Origin: a virus
DNA length: 22,344 nucleotides
IMG/VR virus record: IMGVR_UViG_3300034152_000544
Coordinates: 1-22,344 of that record
Reading direction: 5' to 3' (one strand)
The notes beneath the pieces are model-generated. The model worked only from the letters and a program-made list of their open reading frames with translations. It did not search any database and was not told the origin of the DNA. The position numbers were made by a program, and so were the translations under genes. Below, piece after piece: positions 3,468 through 19,054 of the stretch; the first letter of the stretch is position 1, and each line of letters begins with the position of its first letter.

Positions 3468-3706
3468 CACCGCACTATTGGAGGTGGTATGAGTTTCTCA
3501 TAACGAGTGCTATGGGATGCCCGCCCCTCAAACATATAGATCATCTCCTTTCCCCATCCCACATCTCTTAACTTCTCCCGAAACTCCCGCATTCTCTCCT
3601 CTATCCCGCCCACTATCAGATCATGGAAGTTCAACATGTCTCTAATATGCTGCACAATCGCTCGTTCATCCAGTAGATTCACCTGAGCAGGATCAGGAAA
3701 ATTCAT
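3467..3706 (-). CDS. Small hypothetical protein (79 aa) upstream of primase
   Basis: I do not recognise this family. The product is charged and largely helical in appearance (LLDERAIVQHIRDML, then EERMREFREKLRDVG). It lacks cysteine pairs and membrane segments and has a Pro-rich tail ending PPPIVR. ATG 3706 has a good SD (AGGAG, about 7 bases). Its stop TGA overlaps the primase ATG (TGATG), so the two are likely translated together and it may be a replication accessory. The 109 bases between it and the RNA ligase stop hold nothing I can identify. Confidence 0.7.
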   Translation of the reverse strand: MNFPDPAQVNLLDERAIVQHIRDMLNFHDLIVGGIEERMREFREKLRDVGWGKEMIYMFEGRASHSTRYEKLIPPPIVR

Positions 3707-3815
3707 GTGTCATCTCCTATTAGTTGTACTCTACGTCACCAATACCCTTCTCACGCCGCTCATTCAAACAGTCTAATACCATCTTTTGACTATGCTCATT
3801 CTCCCTTTCCTCTCA

Positions 3816-6164
3816 TTATAATCCATCCTCCACGTCCCCTATCTCTTTCTCCCTCAATCCATCTTCAAACAATAAGAATTCCGAACTCTTCAGCTTGAGA
3901 CAATTCCAGCCCCCATTGCCATCCTCAAACCAAACCACCACACCCTCCAAAAGTGTGCTTGCATCAATGGTGGACTTACCCCTGGTGGCTTCCTTCAAGC
4001 CCTCAAATGTCATATGATCATGGTGGTATCTCCACAGAGCATCACCAAACCGAGAGAACACACCCGGATCAGAATAGAACGCTGCAATACCCATGAGAGG
4101 CGGCGACTCCAGGCCAAGCTCGTAGGCCCGACGATACACCGCATCCCTAGACAGGTCCACACAATGACCATCCGGTGTAGTGATTGTCACGCGATAGAGC
4201 GCCACACGGTACTGTCCACCAGCACAGCCATATGAGAAACCAGACTGAATCTCGGCACCCGTCTTCGAATGCCCGTAGATCTCATAGTACAGCTGCTCAC
4301 CCTTCCGAAGATGTGGAGCCACCTTCTCCTCGACCTCTTGACGTGCCGCATGAAGATGTGCCCGGATGCTATCCACCCGACGAGTACCACTGACCACACG
4401 CCACTCCTCAGTAACCTTGGGAGCCCAGAACTTCCACCACGGGCGCTGGACCTTGAACAGAACACGTCCAGTACGCGCAGATGAATTATGAATCAACATT
4501 CCATCAGCCAAATAATTACCAACACCAGTCTCTATATCCCATTTACTAGAATATTGTAAATCCTGACTACTTTTCTCTTCAATACAATCAATACATGTCT
4601 CGCGCAGCTTATAGGAATATTCGACCTTCTGACTAAACAATTCATCAAAATATCCACGATGATATTCTGGCAATTTATACTGCATACACTCAGGAACATA
4701 GGACCTTATCAAACAAAAAAATCTCTCAGCATCATCTGCATTCAATCTAATTCGATTATACCCATCATATTTGCAGACTTTAATTTGAATTCCAAACCTG
4801 TCAAATAATTGAATAAATTTCTCACAATCATCATCACTATAACGACACACAGCAAAGCATGCTCGATCTCTTTGCTTTTCAGTGTGTGACAAGTTTCCAT
4901 CATCCATATACCAAATTGCAAGTGATAAAGGTGTAACAGCATCAAGGCAATTCACCCCTCGATCCTCTTTAAACACACTCTCTATAATCTCCTTAATAGA
5001 TTCGCTGTTCTTGGTATTCATCCGAAACATAGTTGTGCCATAACCACTTTCCCTAACATCAACATTCTGAGTGACACAATCACCCAAAACATGACATGTC
5101 CAATCAAAATACTCCTTCTGCTTATTCCCATGAGAAAAATTTATTTGATTCAGATTACCATAACTAAATGATCCATCACCCAACAACTTCCCAATCAACA
5201 CACTCCGCTGCACCTCACTCAACCCCAAATATGGAACTGAAAAATAAACACTATCTCCCACATCCAAATCCGCAGCCTGCTTATAACACATGCCATCTGT
5301 TAATATCTCATGGTTTTCAGTGCAGAATAAATGCCCATTTCTATCTCCCAAAAACTTACCACATCGTGTATACCCAATTCTTAACCAAGAACATGTCTTA
5401 CCATTACGAAAAATATTCTTTACCTCTGTATGAATCATTTTGTGCTTAGCAAAATCATATCCCCAAACAACATCCCCCACCTCAACAGAAGATATTTTCT
5501 TCTGTGTGCCATCCCCCATTCTAATTCGCGTATTAGATGGAACGCAACCATGGATCTTCTCTTCGATGTAGACGAGGCCATCTGTCAGACGCCCCTTCTC
5601 TCGGAGAAGATGCTTTGTGTCCCAGTGCTTCCAGAACATCTCTGACACAGGCTCCTTCACTCTCTTCTTTCGAGACCCAGGGGCACCTGAAGTATTGCAA
5701 GGGATCACATACTTCTCACAAATCTTCACACCATCCACATGCGTGAATTCATCTCCCACACTGAGATAAGACATCGTTCCCGTTGCCGCGATATCAGAGA
5801 CTGATTGCTGCACCCCTGATATAGTTCTCTGAATAGACAGGATGTCTGCCACATACCCATTCGACATCTCTCCACGAAATCGCTGCGCCCGAACACGACC
5901 AGTCTTACCAAAGTAGCCCTTGGCCTCAGGATCAGCATTCATCTCCGGATTCGAATACAGGTTGTTGTGGTGCAAGTACTCCGGAGACAGCCGAAGATTT
6001 GATGAAAAATAAATGATCACATCTCCATCTTTCATGTCCGGACCCACCACAACCTGCTCCCCCAACACCGTAGCCAGCTTCAGACGATCAGCTCCAGGGT
6101 GTTTTCTCACATTCTCCAACGTAGTCACTATCGCGTTGTTCCCATCTGATGAAATTGTCAACAT
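3816..6164 (-). CDS. RNA ligase (DraRnl/naRNL-like) interrupted by an intein
   Basis: The 782-residue precursor has an N-terminal OB-like half (about residues 1-150: ATVLGEQVVVGPDMKDGD, EYLHHNNLYSN, GRVRAQRFRGEMSNGY, GDEFTHVDGVKICEKY), typical of the Deinococcus-type RNA ligase family, and a nucleotidyltransferase half. The AMP-accepting motif I is EEKIHG (Lys203), normally followed by (T/S)SA. Here a 354-residue intein (C207-N560) lies directly after the Gly, and the host sequence resumes with SSARTGRVLF. Later motifs include YYEIYG (603-650 region) and LLEGVVVWFEDG/LKLKS (motifs IV/V) near the C terminus. Splicing would give 428 residues. It probably repairs nicked RNA, such as tRNAs cut by host defence nucleases, which fits the tRNA cluster. 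ATG 6164 has GGGAG upstream. Confidence 0.87.
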   Translation of the reverse strand: MLTISSDGNNAIVTTLENVRKHPGADRLKLATVLGEQVVVGPDMKDGDVIIYFSSNLRLSPEYLHHNNLYSNPEMNADPEAKGYFGKTGRVRAQRFRGEMSNGYVADILSIQRTISGVQQSVSDIAATGTMSYLSVGDEFTHVDGVKICEKYVIPCNTSGAPGSRKKRVKEPVSEMFWKHWDTKHLLREKGRLTDGLVYIEEKIHGCVPSNTRIRMGDGTQKKISSVEVGDVVWGYDFAKHKMIHTEVKNIFRNGKTCSWLRIGYTRCGKFLGDRNGHLFCTENHEILTDGMCYKQAADLDVGDSVYFSVPYLGLSEVQRSVLIGKLLGDGSFSYGNLNQINFSHGNKQKEYFDWTCHVLGDCVTQNVDVRESGYGTTMFRMNTKNSESIKEIIESVFKEDRGVNCLDAVTPLSLAIWYMDDGNLSHTEKQRDRACFAVCRYSDDDCEKFIQLFDRFGIQIKVCKYDGYNRIRLNADDAERFFCLIRSYVPECMQYKLPEYHRGYFDELFSQKVEYSYKLRETCIDCIEEKSSQDLQYSSKWDIETGVGNYLADGMLIHNSSARTGRVLFKVQRPWWKFWAPKVTEEWRVVSGTRRVDSIRAHLHAARQEVEEKVAPHLRKGEQLYYEIYGHSKTGAEIQSGFSYGCAGGQYRVALYRVTITTPDGHCVDLSRDAVYRRAYELGLESPPLMGIAAFYSDPGVFSRFGDALWRYHHDHMTFEGLKEATRGKSTIDASTLLEGVVVWFEDGNGGWNCLKLKSSEFLLFEDGLREKEIGDVEDGL
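4485..5546 (-). mobile_element. Intein with LAGLIDADG homing endonuclease domain
   Basis: Residues 207-560 of the RNA ligase precursor carry the full intein signature. Block A is CVPSNTRIRMGDGTQKKISS. Block B is T282-E-N-H285. Two LAGLIDADG helices are present: LIGKLLGDGS (about 323-332) and LAIWYMDDGN (about 415-424). Block F is WDIETGVGNYLADG, and block G is L-I-H559-N560 followed by Ser561 as the extein nucleophile. All splicing residues are in place, so it should be active. Base composition differs sharply: a 60-base sample inside (4501-4560) is 33% G+C and one in the flanking ligase (4201-4260) is 57%, a sign of separate origin. Confidence 0.95.
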
Positions 6165-6166
6165 CT

Positions 6167-6280
6167 CATTTCTCCCACTTCACATCTTCTATCAATGCCT
6201 TCTACAAACTCATCAATGGGCTTTTCCTTTCCACACTTAGAACACGTCAACTTACCATCAATGATCTCCTTACGTCTCAA
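6167..6280 (-). CDS. Tiny zinc-knuckle protein (37 aa), TTG start
   Basis: Short frame with TTG 6280 as the likeliest start, because AGGAG lies 7 bases upstream; an ATG at 6337 in the same frame has no SD. The product contains LTCSKCGKEKPIDEF and a third Cys (GIDRRC), a layout seen in small phage CxxC treble-clef or knuckle proteins. Its TGA lies 3 bases before the RNA ligase ATG, so it could be coupled to the ligase. Function unknown; the start is uncertain. Confidence 0.5.
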
Positions 6281-6290
6281 CCCTTCTCTC

Positions 6291-6473
6291 CTACTTCTCC
6301 CCTGATCTGCCCTGCAAGAGATCCATACGCGCGTCATTGAACTCGCAGATCTCTACCAGCCCCTCAACTGCCTCCACCAGCTTCACATACTCCAGCGGAG
6401 CCTTCTCCAGTCCCTTCGCCTTCTCCAGTTTCGTCCGCATCCCCTTCAGCTTCTGAGCCACTTCTGTCGCCAT
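6291..6473 (-). CDS. Small helical hypothetical protein (60 aa), overlaps its upstream neighbour
   Basis: The product is Lys/Glu/Leu-rich and probably coiled-coil (AQKLKGMRTKLEKAKGLEKA, then KLVEAVEGLVEI). The second ATG (6473) is preferred because GGAGG lies 9 bases upstream; the first ATG at 6482 abuts that SD. The first 110 bases overlap the end of the preceding gene in another reading frame. It ends with TAG, whose bases merge into the SD of the next small gene. No family recognised. Confidence 0.55.
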   Translation of the reverse strand: MATEVAQKLKGMRTKLEKAKGLEKAPLEYVKLVEAVEGLVEICEFNDARMDLLQGRSGEK

Positions 6474-10305: not shown

Positions 10306-11447
10306 CACAAGGCTCCTATCACAGTTTCTAGATATTGTGGCATGATCACATCCCACGTGTAGTCACTCTTCATGTTTCCAGGATGAACCATCTCGCCCTT
10401 CTCACGATACGCCTCCTGCAAGGCGCTCTTCAGGTAGCCGATCAACTCATCGACGGTCAACCCTCTATCGTTATGGAGATCGATGAACGCTATAACGCGC
10501 TCTGCCGCCTCGATGAACTTCGGCATCTGTCCCTTGTGAGGCTTCCACTGCGAATTATTGATCAGCCAACCGTAGGCTGCTATGATCTTTTCAGTGATCT
10601 CTGGATGATCGTCTGGTTCCCTAAACCTCCCACAAGAGCCACCGTCCATCTGGTTCTTCAGGGTCTCAAACTGCTTCCGGAACTTCCCACCGGATAGAAT
10701 CTGGCCCTGCCAGAATTCGTCCTTTTGACACCACTTCAAAACCTCTACAGCTTCGTCATAGTCTCTGGCATCTCGCGTGAGTAGCAGATCGAAATCCTTT
10801 GCCCACCGACGCAACGACTTTTCCTCTTTTTCTGGTGTGAAATGTTTGGCTATTCTACTGTAGAACTTTTTGTTCTTCCTGATCAATGCTAACAGGGCGC
10901 TGGCCAGGATGTATCCGTCTGTCTCAGCTTCTACCTGGACCTCGTCAGAGGTGGTTGCAACCTTGACTACATCTTCTTGATAATCTTTCTGATAGTCTTC
11001 CTCTATATAGGATTGATCTATAGGTAAACGCGCGTTTACCTCTGAGTCAACACCCTTTGATCTATAGGTAAACGCGCTCTTATCACTTTTACCTATAGTA
11101 CACGTCGCTTTTTCGTCCATTATACAGGTTTCTGGTGTACACCATATTCTACGATGTGTACATCCATTAATGTTCTTTCTCTTTATGTAGATAAACTTAG
11201 CCGTCTCTAATTCAGATAGTAGACGTGAGATGTAGGTCTTCTTTTTTCCCATTTTGTCCGCAAAAAACTCATTGGTTTTTTGGCAAAACCCAGCATCTTG
11301 ATCATTCTCACCCCATGATACAGATTTATGTTCTGCATCTACACGTTTGGAACAAATCCAGACATAGAGCAGTTTTGCTGCATTTGACAGTTCCCTATGT
11401 GATAGTACACTGCTGTGTGCTATCATGTTGAATTCGCATTTGCTCAT
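10305..11447 (-). CDS. Replication initiator protein (winged-helix N terminus), contains origin-like repeats
   Basis: A 380-residue protein. ATG 11447 is chosen because it forms an ATGA overlap with the previous stop and has AAGGA upstream. Residues about 1-110 look like a winged helix-turn-helix of the DnaD/lambda O/helix_turn_helix_36 kind: MIAHSSVLSHRELSNAAKLL, then KTNEFFADKMGKKKTYISRL and LSELETAKFIYIKRKN. A low-complexity linker (about 140-190) follows, then a C-terminal helical domain (about 200-380) that likely contacts the helicase. The linker DNA carries direct repeats and a palindrome resembling an origin (separate entry), the arrangement of lambda O. The call rests on domain style, repeats and the helicase downstream; a plain transcription regulator is less likely. 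Confidence 0.72.
   Translation of the reverse strand: MSKCEFNMIAHSSVLSHRELSNAAKLLYVWICSKRVDAEHKSVSWGENDQDAGFCQKTNEFFADKMGKKKTYISRLLSELETAKFIYIKRKNINGCTHRRIWCTPETCIMDEKATCTIGKSDKSAFTYRSKGVDSEVNARLPIDQSYIEEDYQKDYQEDVVKVATTSDEVQVEAETDGYILASALLALIRKNKKFYSRIAKHFTPEKEEKSLRRWAKDFDLLLTRDARDYDEAVEVLKWCQKDEFWQGQILSGGKFRKQFETLKNQMDGGSCGRFREPDDHPEITEKIIAAYGWLINNSQWKPHKGQMPKFIEAAERVIAFIDLHNDRGLTVDELIGYLKSALQEAYREKGEMVHPGNMKSDYTWDVIMPQYLETVIGAL
11013..11098. repeat. Iteron-like repeat cluster, probable replication origin
   Basis: A 21-base sequence (TTGATCTATAGGTAAACGCG plus C) occurs identically at 11013-11033 and 11057-11077, 44 bases apart (about four helical turns). The first copy runs into a perfect 18-base palindrome GGTAAACGCGCGTTTACC (11023-11040). 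An 11-base inverted partial copy, TTTACCTATAG, lies at 11088-11098. The two copies are translated in different frames of the initiator gene, so protein constraint cannot explain the identity. Flanks are A+T-rich. Confidence 0.75.
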
Positions 11448-11878
11448 AATGAGTCCTTCACTGCTGATATTTGTTCTTGATATGTTGATCGTATTTCTTT
11501 GATGTCCTGTTGATCTAATCGAAACCATTCACCTTTTACTCGCTTTGATTCAAATTTCTTATGTAGTTCCAGTTCCATTTGATGGCGGTTTGAAGCTTTG
11601 AGAATTGCTATTACTTTGGTGTAGGGACTAAACCCTGGAGAATGAAGACGCGCCATCCAATCAACAGACTTACCTATTTTGTAGAATCCGTGTCCATCTG
11701 CAAACACATACACATATCCAGATTTATCTTTCTTGTCATGTTTTTGTTTAACATTTTGAAATCGATTACATTCTTCATGCATCAGATAGCTTGCCATCTT
11801 TAATGGAAATGTCCTATAACAGGTATTACACCATACTTTATCTCCTTTCCTTGTAAGCTGTAATTGATGTGTTTTCAT
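11444..11878 (-). CDS. T5orf172/MUG113-type GIY-YIG-like protein
   Basis: The 144-residue product has an N-terminal zinc module (C17NTC20, later H/C in LMHEEC) and then a T5orf172 domain, a GIY-YIG relative: GYVYVFADGHGFYKIGKSVD (about 54-73), then FSPYTKVIAIL and ELELHKKFESKRVKGEWFRL. Such proteins are often mobile endonuclease-like genes of phages. ATG 11878 has GGAGGAG upstream and overlaps the previous stop (ATGA). A 60-base sample (11521-11580) is about 33% G+C, well below most neighbours, which suggests recent arrival. A decayed relative lies directly upstream. Endonuclease activity is not proven by sequence alone. Confidence 0.72.
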   Translation of the reverse strand: MKTHQLQLTRKGDKVWCNTCYRTFPLKMASYLMHEECNRFQNVKQKHDKKDKSGYVYVFADGHGFYKIGKSVDWMARLHSPGFSPYTKVIAILKASNRHQMELELHKKFESKRVKGEWFRLDQQDIKEIRSTYQEQISAVKDSL

Positions 11879-12490
11879 TCTTCTCCTCCTATGATGAATG
11901 GATCATCGATCAGATCCGACAATGCTCTGTAATCCTCGTACTTCTCTCCAGTCCAGACCATCAAGATCATAGCGGTCCTACCTCTGGGCCGCTCCTCGTA
12001 GAAATAGTCTAAGATGCCCTTCTCATGTAGCTTGAGGAATCGAGCCCTCATCTCTGATAGCATCATCTGATTCTGCCACTAACAGAATCCTTGAAGCTGG
12101 ACTGAAATCCCCAGTGAATCTACGCTTCCAATTTGTGGTCCGACCTATCTTGATGTGGCCCATGCCATCGGAAATCAGATAGATGAATCCTTTTCTGTTT
12201 TTCCCCTGTCTTCTCCGCTCTATCCGCTCCTTCACACTTGGTTCCATGTAGGAGAAGTCGCCACTCTTCAAGAGACGCTGTAACCGTCTCTATGCAGTCA
12301 ATGCATAACATTCTGTGCCTTTTCTCACGCCTCTCTAGAGCATTACGTGCCCAACCTGAATATGTTCGTTCCATTCTCCAGGATCGGTGGCTTCTTTCCA
12401 GATGCGACCACGAATCATGTAATCTCCAGACTCAGAGGTATCTACACCGCAATCAATACACTGAAATCCCTTGATTAAGTCTCTCCTCAT
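11875..12490 (-). pseudogene. Scrambled chimera: zinc-knuckle + T5orf172 + duplicated C-terminal domain, several frame breaks
   Basis: Read in one order this region encodes parts of one protein in shifting frames. It starts at ATG 12490 (SD GGAGA): MRRDLIKGFQCIDCGVDTSE and on to residue 51, then TAG 12335. A second frame (about 12360-12280) gives RREKRHRMLCIDCIE. The first frame resumes with RLQRLLKSGDFSYMEPSVKE and a T5orf172 core (GFIYLISDGMGHIKIGRTTN, 12190-12090). A third frame (12066-11875) gives a 60-residue end closely matching the C terminus of the next upstream gene (TAMILMVWTGEKYEDYRALS versus TAMILMVWNGEQYVDYREIS). The last frame still ends with an ATGA overlap to the 11878 start. 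It is either a decayed gene fusion or sequence error; smaller pieces may be translated. Confidence 0.6.
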
Positions 12491-14927: not shown

Positions 14928-15872
14928 TCAATAATCCGTCGTTATGGTCAAATGGAATGGCGTTGTCGGCAAACTGCGCTGCGTGTAGAGATATTCATCC
15001 ACATCAGACGCCGAAACGTTCGCTGTCAAGGCCAATTTCCGACAAATCTTGGCCGAATTCGCCCGAATCATCACTTCTTCCTTCGATCCCTTCGGAATAA
15101 GCTGCCCATGCTCGATTTTCATCTCCAAAGCCTGCGAATACTTCAGCAAACCAAGGTTCCGGAGTACATTTGGGATGTGATAGTCAATCGGAACCGGCAA
15201 ATCGACCACTTCGGTCCCAAATAGGTCCATCCTACCCAGTGCTCGACGGCATTTGAACAAATCCAGGAAGAACAGTGACGCTCTCTTGAGGAACATGTCC
15301 GACACATAGCCCGGAAAGCTCTGCTCCAGCATGTTCATCAGCGTCGAAAGCTCATTATCCGCGCTGCCATCAGACTCACCGACACGTTCACCCTTCTTGA
15401 TGATCTCAATCATGAACCGGATGAAGTGCGTCCTCGGTTTTCCCATCTCCTCCAGGTGATGAATCCGCTCTTCCAGCATCGGCATACGAGCAAAGCGAAT
15501 CGCATGCCGGAACTTGTCCAGCACTGCCGTGTACAGGTCCTCCGGACACCCATAGCCCTTGGTCGCTTCGATTTCTTTGATCAGAATGTTAGACACCATG
15601 CTTGCTCTGGAGCCATTCGGACGGATCTTATCCCATCCGTACCAGTAGCAGTAGTTGATAGAATTCATGAGCAAGGCATACACCACGTACTCTTCCACAT
15701 TCGAAATACCAGTAGGGAACGGATGTGTCCTACCGGGATTTGTTCCCACCCAGCGTAGAAATTCACCAGACCTTTGCTCCCAGACACGTTTGTCCGGATT
15801 GATCCAGACGCCCCTGCCCAAGTCGCAGACATCGTCCACTATCCTCCACATTATCTCATATGCCTTGTGCAT
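14928..15872 (-). CDS. Queuosine-salvage (DUF2419/Qng1-like) protein
   Basis: This 314-residue protein matches the layout of the queuosine 5'-phosphate N-glycosylase family (HhH-GPD-like fold). It has an N-terminal NSINYCYWYGWDKIRP block like the family's LNFxFW segment, a middle FLKRASLFFLDLFKCRRAL, and the signature PVPIDYHIPNVLRNLGLLKY (family form (A/T)DYRVPQVLRxxGxLxYS). In that last block Asp lies at the expected catalytic position. The end follows the family too: LIPKGSKEEVMIRANSAKIC and DVDEYLYTQ. Known members release queuine for insertion into GUN-anticodon tRNAs. A phage copy could salvage Q for phage or host tRNAs or act on a related 7-deazapurine nucleotide. ATG 15872 has GGGAGG upstream and a 17-base overlap with the gene before. 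The call rests on remembered motifs. Confidence 0.65.
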   Translation of the reverse strand: MHKAYEIMWRIVDDVCDLGRGVWINPDKRVWEQRSGEFLRWVGTNPGRTHPFPTGISNVEEYVVYALLMNSINYCYWYGWDKIRPNGSRASMVSNILIKEIEATKGYGCPEDLYTAVLDKFRHAIRFARMPMLEERIHHLEEMGKPRTHFIRFMIEIIKKGERVGESDGSADNELSTLMNMLEQSFPGYVSDMFLKRASLFFLDLFKCRRALGRMDLFGTEVVDLPVPIDYHIPNVLRNLGLLKYSQALEMKIEHGQLIPKGSKEEVMIRANSAKICRKLALTANVSASDVDEYLYTQRSLPTTPFHLTITTDY

Positions 15873-17255: not shown

Positions 17256-17296
17256 ATAAATTTGCCAGAAATGATTGGGACCGGAAGGGAATTAAA

Positions 17297-17369
17297 CTGG
17301 GCTGAGAGGACTCGAACCTCCAACACTGGGATTAGAAATACCATGCTCTTCCAATTGAGCTACAGCCCA
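17297..17369 (-). tRNA. tRNA-Arg (anticodon UCU)
   Basis: A full 73-base cloverleaf: acceptor TGGGCTG/CAGCCCA, D-arm GCTC...GAGC, anticodon arm TGGTA-TTTCTAA-TCCCA (one T/C mismatch), T-arm GGAGG-TTCGAGT-CCTCT, and G73. Anticodon UCU reads AGA/AGG. It lies alone between the DNA ligase and the 134-aa gene promoter. CCA is not encoded. Confidence 0.88.
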
Positions 17370-17408
17370 GTCACCTCAAACACACTACCACAGTATTTGC
17401 AAATCTTC

Positions 17409-18296
17409 TTACTCATAATCTCGCACTGTCACGCCAATCGGAAACCGGGGAATGCCATCGTCCGTCAACTCCTGATACCGCACCGTGAGCATCTTTCCGA
17501 AGTACTGCACACGATTCTGCCATGCCTCTCTGCGCCACTCATAGGTTCCCATGGGACGAGCCTTGAACGTTCTCTCATCATCATGAGCCATGCGGCACAC
17601 CCAGATCAGAGTCCCTTTGTCTTTGCCCTTGCCCTCGATGGCTCCCACTATCTGAAACTCAGCATCCAGGAACTTCTTCAGCTTAAGCAAATCACGACCA
17701 CTACGCCCATGCTTGTAGATACCACTTGGATTCCGATAGATCAGACCCTCGTATCCTTCATTGATGAACCGATCCAAGCTCTCCCACAGTGTCTTACTGT
17801 CACACACGTCCAACGTCAAGACAGGCTCCTCTGCTACCTGTGCCAACAAAGACCGCACCGTGATCAGTCGTTCCGTGAATGGCACGTTGGGACGGCCCTC
17901 AAAGTAGCAGTCATACACGTGATACTGGAGCATGTCACTGGAGACATATGCCAGATCTTCTTCAGTGATCACGTAGTTCGGATCAGGATCTTCAGGCTCT
18001 GGCAATGGTGCTGGATCTACCTTAGCTGGGTATTCCTTCTTCACCACTGAGACAGTCTTCTGAAATGTCCATGGCGCAGGAAGCATCAACTCACCATCGA
18101 ACACAAGCCCACCAGTCAGCATCGAATACCGCTCCTGGAGCATCCTCAGGATATGAGGCTTGTGATCTTTCAGATTCCGTGTCCACGCTTGCTTTCCATC
18201 AAACAGACATCGCACCCCATCCAACTTCGGTTGCACCAAACAGGGAAACGTAGCCTTCTTGTCCTCAAACTTGTTCGCCAACATCGGCTTCTGCAT
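17409..18296 (-). CDS. ATP-dependent DNA ligase
   Basis: A 295-residue minimal ligase. Motif I is VQPKLDGVRCLF (catalytic Lys in KLDGVR, about residues 22-30). Motif III-like is YHVYDCYF, motif IV EGYEGLIYRNP, motif V LLKLKKF, and a C-terminal OB-type domain follows (FQIVGAIEGKGKDKGTLIWV, MLTVRYQELTDDGIPRFP). It seals nicks in phage DNA after replication and recombination. ATG 18296 is chosen over the TTG one codon upstream because GAGGAG is 8 bases before it, and it overlaps the stop of a preceding small frame (TGATG). Length is typical of phage ATP ligases. Confidence 0.92.
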   Translation of the reverse strand: MQKPMLANKFEDKKATFPCLVQPKLDGVRCLFDGKQAWTRNLKDHKPHILRMLQERYSMLTGGLVFDGELMLPAPWTFQKTVSVVKKEYPAKVDPAPLPEPEDPDPNYVITEEDLAYVSSDMLQYHVYDCYFEGRPNVPFTERLITVRSLLAQVAEEPVLTLDVCDSKTLWESLDRFINEGYEGLIYRNPSGIYKHGRSGRDLLKLKKFLDAEFQIVGAIEGKGKDKGTLIWVCRMAHDDERTFKARPMGTYEWRREAWQNRVQYFGKMLTVRYQELTDDGIPRFPIGVTVRDYE

Positions 18297-18445
18297 CAAT
18301 TGCTCTCCTCAATCTCGATCTCTTCACCACACTCTGAACATATGTACCATGACGTCCAGGACTCAGTACCACTTGGAAGATGACGATGCGGAGTCGAACG
18401 CACACAGTTGAGAGCCGCAATGCCAGCTGAGGGTAACGATCCCAC
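18296..18445 (-). CDS. Possible small zinc-binding protein (up to 49 aa)
   Basis: The end of this frame, ESWTSWYICSECGEEIEIEE-SN, looks protein-like with a CSEC knuckle, and its TGA overlaps the DNA ligase ATG (TGATG). The start is unclear: GTG 18445 has AAAGGAG 5 bases upstream but lies inside the tRNA-Tyr-like element, while GTG 18403 has no SD and gives 35 residues. The N-terminal half may be tRNA-derived sequence. Confidence 0.4.
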   Translation of the reverse strand: MGSLPSAGIAALNCVRSTPHRHLPSGTESWTSWYICSECGEEIEIEESN

Positions 18446-18506
18446 TCGGCTCCTTTCGGAGATCAGGTTTACAGCCTGAGCCGCCTCCTTAACGGTCTAC
18501 GCTGGC
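18421..18506 (-). tRNA. tRNA-Tyr-like gene (anticodon GUA), odd T-loop
   Basis: An 86-base element, the right length for bacterial tRNA-Tyr. Acceptor GCCAGC/GCTGGC (six pairs plus a G-A), anticodon arm TCAGG-CTGTAAA-CCTGA, long variable arm CTCC-GAAA-GGAG, and A73. The T-arm GTGGG-ATCGTTA-CCCTC departs from TTCGAAN (T54 and A58 are exchanged), and the D-stem is weak. It may be functional, or decaying. Confidence 0.6.
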
Positions 18507-18646
18507 CGAAGCTTTGAATCTGCATTGCTGTGCCCTTAGCGCGCTCTGAGCACAACCTGTTCTCTGCCTCTGGTAAATAAGCAATCGCAAGCTCGTCAGC
18601 TTTCGTGGATTACCAGAACCACCACTTCAAATGGTCTCCAAAGCAA

Positions 18647-18721
18647 TAACCCCGGTAGGATTTTTGAACCTACACTGAACTGGTTCTAAGCCAGTCGCCT
18701 CTGCCGTTGGGCTACGGGGCC
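18647..18721 (-). tRNA. tRNA-Leu by anticodon (UAG), short variable loop and long T-loop
   Basis: Acceptor GGCCCCG/CGGGGTT with two G-T pairs at the tip, D-arm GCC...GGC with GG in the loop, anticodon arm ACTGG-CTTAGAA-CCAGT, T-stem GTAGG/CCTAC with a 9-base loop TTCAAAAAT, and A73. Anticodon UAG reads CUA/CUG. Cellular tRNA-Leu has a long variable arm; this has five bases. It does not read the UAG stop codon (that needs CUA). Confidence 0.75.
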
Positions 18722-18725
18722 AAGA

Positions 18726-18822
18726 TTCGCCTGTTTGGCGGTCCAGCCGAATCGAACGGTCTCTCCTCCCGCCGCCAAGACAAGGAGGCACACCAACCAG
18801 ATGCTTCTCTGGAACAGGCGAA
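18726..18822 (-). other. tRNA-like structured element between tRNA-Leu and tRNA-Phe
   Basis: A 97-base element closed by a perfect 10-base inverted repeat (TTCGCCTGTT at 18726-18735, AACAGGCGAA at 18813-18822). On the minus strand it contains a hairpin CCAGA-gaagca-TCTGG, a CCTCC...GGAGG pairing, a T-loop-like GTTCGATTC, and a nested 7-base stem TTGGCGG/CCGCCAA. It does not fold into a normal cloverleaf with a readable anticodon. A rearranged class II tRNA is the best explanation. Confidence 0.5.
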
Positions 18823-18823
18823 A

Positions 18824-18896
18824 TGGGAACGGTAGGATTCGAACCTACGGCGCTTGGTACTTCACACCAACGCTCTTCCAACTGAGCTACGTTCCC
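18824..18896 (-). tRNA. tRNA-Phe (anticodon GAA)
   Basis: A clean 73-base cloverleaf: acceptor GGGAACG/CGTTCCC, D-arm GCTC-AGTTGGAA-GAGC, anticodon arm TTGGT-GTGAAGT-ACCAA, T-arm GTAGG-TTCGAAT-CCTAC, and A73. No encoded CCA. It is the best-formed tRNA of the cluster. Confidence 0.92.
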
Positions 18897-18900
18897 TTAG

Positions 18901-18948
18901 TGGACCATGGCGGGATTCGAACCTGCAACCTCCCGCGCTTTGTGGTCC
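18901..18948 (-). pseudogene. tRNA remnant (acceptor tips and T-arm only)
   Basis: On the minus strand GGACCA and TGGTCC pair around GCAGG-TTCGAAT-CCCGC, a T-arm with the standard GTTCGAATC core. The space between the 5' acceptor strand and the T-arm is only about 19 bases and has no loop with U33, so D and anticodon arms are missing. It looks like an internal deletion of a tRNA gene. Confidence 0.5.
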
Positions 18949-18981
18949 GTCTGGCTCATAACTTCGTCCATATCCAGGCCA

Positions 18982-19054
18982 ATGGGATGGAAGGAATCAA
19001 ACCTTCAACCGTCCGATTAAGAGTCGGATGCTCTGCCAATTGAGCTACATCCCC
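18982..19054 (-). tRNA. tRNA-Lys (anticodon CUU)
   Basis: A 73-base cloverleaf: acceptor GGGGATG/CATCCCA with a G1-A72 mismatch, D-arm GCTC-AATTGGCA-GAGC, anticodon arm TCCGA-CTCTTAA-TCGGA, T-arm GAAGG-TTTGATT-CCTTC (T instead of C at 56), and T73. Reads AAG. The odd end pair, T56 and discriminator suggest relaxed selection, but the core is intact. Confidence 0.82.

Follow-up and report, generated by a model that had tools for sequence, protein, structure and literature searches.

Inteins are known to favour active-site codons. Among the described systems, the Mtu RecA intein and the RecA/UvsX inteins combine a Hint fold, class 1 chemistry and a LAGLIDADG endonuclease in the same way as the insert described here, but they reside in another host gene and form a separate clade (100/99). 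I-SceI shares the fold of the endonuclease half of the insert (phmmer E 0.0065; 21% identity), although it is a free intron-encoded enzyme, whereas the endonuclease considered here is part of an intein. One precedent is gp164 of Pseudaeromonas phage KLEP7 (OM654377), which is annotated as 'intein-containing RNA ligase' and likewise carries a LAGLIDADG intein, but in another ligase family (phrog_548), at another site (GEWAG/C...HN/SNIQK) and with 28% identity to the present intein, outside whose clade it falls. A preliminary description of the present locus regarded an intein at this site of an RNA ligase as new, which is not supported in view of this annotation and of the motif I alleles given below. 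The intein papers that could be searched for RNA ligase hosts, with most subscription papers, InBase and similar lists outside the search, do not describe the allele at motif I, and the word 'ligase' is absent from the main text of the 2016 mycobacteriophage intein survey.

The window, i.e. the whole stretch of viral DNA analysed (22,344 nucleotides, IMG/VR record IMGVR_UViG_3300034152_000544), contains a phage RNA ligase gene with an intein at its adenylylation motif. The features of this gene are as follows.

3816-6164, minus strand: intein-containing RNA ligase precursor of 782 aa, an open reading frame with ATG start (phrog_968)
5547-6164, minus strand: N-extein, residues 1-206, with an OB-fold-like N-terminal domain (PF21189) and motif I K203-I-H-G
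5547-5558, minus strand: motif I codons Lys-Ile-His-Gly with the presumed AMP-accepting Lys203, directly preceding the insertion
4485-5546, minus strand: intein of 354 aa, class 1 by sequence, with a LAGLIDADG homing endonuclease
5544-5546, minus strand: Cys1, block A, predicted first splicing nucleophile, C in 11/11 inteins
5310-5321, minus strand: block B, T76-x-x-H79, invariant in 11 inteins
5172-5198, minus strand: first LAGLIDADG motif, LIGKLLGDG (117-125), with catalytic acid D124, D in 9 of the 10 others
4896-4922, minus strand: second LAGLIDADG motif, LAIWYMDDG (209-217), with catalytic acid D216, invariant
4485-4538, minus strand: blocks F and G, DIETGVGNYLADGMLIHN, with D337 (F:4), Gly343 (F:13) and the terminal His353-Asn354
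3819-4484, minus strand: C-extein, precursor residues 561-782, starting at Ser+1
within 3819-4484, minus strand: C-extein motifs III (YYEIYG), IV (EG) and V (LKLK), from the ligase alignment

The phrog_968 RNA ligase profile matches the precursor in two stretches (5.7e-38, 131.9 bits). In-silico excision of residues 207-560, which correspond exactly to 4485-5546, leaves a 428-aa ligase, and the joined exteins match the profile in a single stretch (4.1e-44, 152.1 bits) that places residues 10-415 of 428 on profile positions 10-394 of 398. The fusion of two matches into one continuous match of higher score upon removal of the intein counts for an insertion. Nucleotidyltransferase motifs I, III, IV and V are all present in this PHROG 968-type ligase: K203, H205 and G206 are identical in 19/19 aligned ligases, E628 and G631 of motif III are invariant in the same 19, E740-G741 of motif IV and K757 are kept in every row reaching them, and the K-x-K of motif V (K757/K759 in the precursor) has one exception among the aligned rows. 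From the established knowledge of covalent nucleotidyltransferases, we take Lys203 to be the AMP acceptor. Similarity of the N-terminal domain to the PHA02142 OB fold and to the beginning of the DRB0094 RNA ligase model was noted, in both cases with scores below the curated cut-offs; the PF21189 match of the N-extein (3e-4) is under the Pfam cut-off. The ligase was not filed as a DRB0094 equivalog (TIGR02306) because its 27.6 bits are far under the curated cut-off of 151.15; this match is also limited to residues 16-108. Given its family, and given what has been reported for RNA ligases of phages (PMC3706429, PMC7824862), the enzyme may have a role in RNA repair. An RNA element or intron in the ligase gene was ruled out, as an Rfam search of 3700-6300 returned no match.

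The insert sits immediately 3' of motif I, with junctions LVYIEEKIHG / CVPSNTRIRMGDGTQ ... YLADGMLIHN / SSARTGRV. The preliminary description had placed an intein at 4485-5546, directly after the catalytic KxHG, and both the coordinates and the description are right; in the junction EEKIHG/C, the intein begins directly after K203-x-H-G of the PHROG 968 ligase. In an alignment of the window intein with ten other phage inteins (11 rows), Cys1, T76, H79, D216, D337, His353 and Asn354 are present in all rows and D124 in 10/11, and the terminal His353-Asn354 is followed by Ser+1. Judged by sequence, the insert belongs to the class 1 inteins, and neither of its endonuclease acids is lost. The statement that all intein blocks are present needs one correction: it holds for Cys1, the TxxH of block B, the block F Asp (Asp337, F:4), the two LAGLIDADG motifs, His-Asn and Ser+1, but the block F His at F:13 is replaced by Gly343, where the ten compared inteins all have His. 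This His assists Asn cyclisation (PMC10663303), and its replacement by Gly means that splicing could be slow or impaired. A decaying intein, in which the loss has impaired splicing and left the ligase partly or wholly inactive in the phage, is nevertheless unlikely: no further splicing residue and neither endonuclease acid has been lost, the reading frame is uninterrupted, every ligase motif is retained, and F:4 and F:13 are described as assisting positions of lower conservation (PMC4031507).

Profile searches gave a LAGLIDADG_2 match (PF03161) of 2e-21, above cut-off, and a match of 2.4e-22 to PHROG 11023 (homing endonuclease with LAGLIDADG motif); the Intein_splicing match (2.7e-5) is below the curated cut-off, and Hint is likewise below its own. 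The AlphaFold2 model of the intein (pLDDT 90.5) has a Hint fold in the splicing domain and a LAGLIDADG fold in the endonuclease half. The splicing half of the model superposes on the Mtu RecA intein with Z 21.4 and rmsd 1.5 A over 134 residues, and the endonuclease half on I-SceI with Z 22.3 and rmsd 2.1 A over 188 residues; Foldseek, also run on the model, gave matches to intein and I-SceI structures. The model of the full precursor (pLDDT 69, pTM 0.50) is of low confidence and was left out of the conclusions. Weak phmmer matches of residues 93-144 to haemagglutinin chains were dismissed as chance.

Homologous ligases with an empty site are found in close relatives. On the IMG/VR contigs L029 and L031, the ligases are 70% identical to the window ligase and read KIHG/TSARTG across the site. 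The gene order on L031 equals that of the window, with a DnaB-like helicase (81% identity), a second helicase (77-80% in the two sisters, 77% on L031), the ligase, a primase (83%), a methyltransferase (67%) and a clamp (50%). Ligases of 70% identity with an empty site in syntenic sisters indicate an insertion and not a ligase domain. The preliminary description had named, as the finding that would speak against an intein, homologues bearing the 354 residues as a true ligase domain; this comparison was run and its outcome favours the intein. An accessory ligase domain, in favour of which there is only the open reading frame, has a negligible probability and is ruled out by the homologues that are empty at the same codon, in agreement with the intact junction residues and the modelled Hint and LAGLIDADG folds. 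The window and its sisters thereby provide a clean comparison of occupied and empty sites, in syntenic surroundings, for an RNA ligase whose adenylylation codon has received an intein. A megablast of the window among named phages found no close DNA relative.

The base composition agrees with this reading. The intein has a G+C content of 36.8%, against 51.4% in the ligase parts and 49.3% in the whole window, and at third positions the values are 31.6% in the intein and 54.8% in the ligase parts; the intein is approximately the 1062-base stretch of lowest G+C in the window. It is thus much poorer in G+C than its host gene, as first noticed, and the proposed recent arrival is supported by this contrast together with the empty sites in the syntenic L029 and L031. 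A second stretch of low G+C (<42%) lies at 10650-12350, where it overlaps a DnaD-like gene and the open reading frame 11444-11878, which has a weak homing-endonuclease match.

The same insertion site, hereafter site A, is occupied in further genomes. A tblastn search with the precursor gave one continuous match over 97% of the query in six Omegavirus (cluster J) mycobacteriophages: Dallas (MN062701), Beem (MZ622169), Phoebus (MK524529), KashFlow (MW314846), Hannaconda (MN586029) and Bobby (MK524516). Their gene family is that of the window and the LAGLIDADG intein spans the whole query; in Dallas and Hannaconda the codon (KLHG/C...HN/SS) and the clade were checked and are also those of the window. 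The Omegavirus inteins differ from ours in that they are about 33% identical to it, keep the block F His and have a G+C content like that of their host (60 vs 58%). The genes are annotated as RNA ligase, except that of Hannaconda, which is annotated as HNH endonuclease, and the region annotations of two of these mycobacteriophage records do not mention an intein. Hannaconda gp150 (L021:2929-5331), recorded as HNH endonuclease, is actually an RNA ligase interrupted by a LAGLIDADG intein. These mycobacteriophage genes, filed under the names given, are therefore intein precursors, and the window intein is a further member of an allele that public mycobacteriophage genomes contain without comment. 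Site and clade are also shared by two IMG/VR phages and by a contig of a Ruminococcus MAG.

L085, IMG/VR phage: junction RKYHG/C, +1 residue Cys; intein 34% identical to that of the window
L086, IMG/VR phage: junction EKIHG/C, +1 residue Ser; intein 39% identical to that of the window
L156, Ruminococcus-MAG contig: junction LKMHG/C, +1 residue Thr

A related insert is thus found at the K-x-H-G codon in nine other ligase genes (six mycobacteriophages, two IMG/VR phages, one MAG contig), and the supposition that the site is new does not hold. The recurrence of the insert at one codon, alongside sisters which lack it, is far beyond chance.

The site-A inteins of the window, Dallas, Hannaconda, L085 and L086 group in a single clade (100/99), which is kept after adding L156. 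The hosts of the L085, L086 and L156 inteins are diverged from that of the window: for L086, the inteins are 39% identical (230 bits) and the exteins 27% over 200 aa (41 bits), and the ligases nearest to the window's are intein-free. Inteins which are more alike than their host ligases point to lateral movement, and the pattern is in keeping with a mobile element that is specific for its site and passes between diverged ligases. The divergence of site-A inteins and host genes is too great for the direction or date of transfers to be read, and the tree has no settled branching order inside the clade. A closer comparison is offered by Lucky2013, a close relative of Dallas with an empty ligase site: the N-flank DNA of the two is 97% identical and the first 60 bases past the site 72%, a drop which would fit co-conversion during homing.

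Considering what is read directly from the sequences, namely the insertion, the residues for splicing and cleavage (complete but for the block F His), the empty sisters and the single site-specific clade, it is very likely that the phage RNA ligase has been invaded at its adenylylation-site codon by a class 1 homing intein, and the intein is probably mobile and splicing-competent. Splicing, cutting, homing and RNA repair by the ligase are predicted, and the best-supported course of events, an ordinary one, would be as follows. The 782-aa precursor would be translated first; Cys1 would attack the Gly206-Cys207 bond, the N-extein would be transferred to Ser561 (+1), and cyclisation of Asn560 would seal the 428-aa ligase with motif I intact (KIHG-SS). 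The I-SceI-like LAGLIDADG endonuclease of the freed intein could then cut empty ligase genes at the motif I codon in co-infecting phages, and repair of the cut gene would copy the intein in. The site may suit such a parasite in offering an invariant K-x-H-G, found in 18/18 aligned ligase relatives, and next to it a natural Thr or Ser that would serve as +1 nucleophile. The +1 residue is Thr in 13/18 relatives and Thr, Ser or Cys in 17/18; the remaining row (L086) shows Asn, which is attributed to an alignment shift, since the junction of L086 itself reads HN/SN. As Thr or Ser is usual at +1, a splicing nucleophile is available at the site before any intein arrives.

The unspliced precursor would very probably be incapable of adenylylation, as had been anticipated, because the intein parts motif I from motifs III-V by 354 residues. 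From this requirement for prior splicing, the preliminary description went on to regard splicing as a switch for RNA repair. Such a switch would have splicing await an infection or damage cue and then free the active ligase. Conditional splicing is known in other inteins (PMC10663303), phage inteins are tuned by natural differences at a splicing residue (PMC5050341), and only the window copy lacks the block F His. However, no sensor or conditional feature was found in the sequence, the block F His is conserved in relatives of the allele, and the ligase occurs without the intein in close relatives of the same gene order and in Lucky2013 beside Dallas. As the ligase of the sister phages has no intein, the switch is unsupported and we regard it as highly improbable. 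With the active-site codon itself occupied, a single assay could report on both splicing and adenylylation, so that intein regulation is easily put to a direct test in the invaded ligase.

Motif I is also occupied in other ligases. The PF09414 RNA ligase at L087:3989-6025 has an intein immediately after motif I KIDG, and the ATP-dependent DNA ligase at L098:3722-6205 (PF01068 7e-14) has a LAGLIDADG intein immediately after motif I KMDG. The codon is equivalent to that of the window, but the ligase families are different, and a common origin of these two inteins with site A is neither shown nor rejected (AU p 0.205). Motif I inteins recurring in three ligase families support the rule that inteins prefer active-site codons. 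A broader proposal would make the window intein, through its motif I placement and lost block F His, a slow, cue-dependent splicer that delays RNA repair, and motif I of RNA and DNA ligases (KxHG/KxDG) a general intein landing site that tunes the onset of ligase activity; this is a long shot. A second recurrent intein site in phage RNA ligases lies near motif III (GEAYGG/GEWCG/GEWAG), in the following genes.

L089:3839-5797: RNA ligase with intein near motif III
L091:3602-5746: RNA ligase with intein near motif III
L024:2111-4234: RNA ligase with intein near motif III

At L088:2070-2375, the reading frame of an RNA ligase ends after the first 17 residues of what looks like an intein, GCLCCRTPILLTDGSKM, although the tblastn match continues; the stop would be a frameshift, a broken intein or an assembly error.

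Elsewhere in the window, a queuosine salvage protein is encoded at 14928-15872 (PF10343 2e-22; no PHROG match). Five minus-strand tRNA genes (Arg, Tyr, Leu, Phe, Lys) lie at 17296-19054, and beside this cluster is an ATP-dependent DNA ligase gene (17409-18299).
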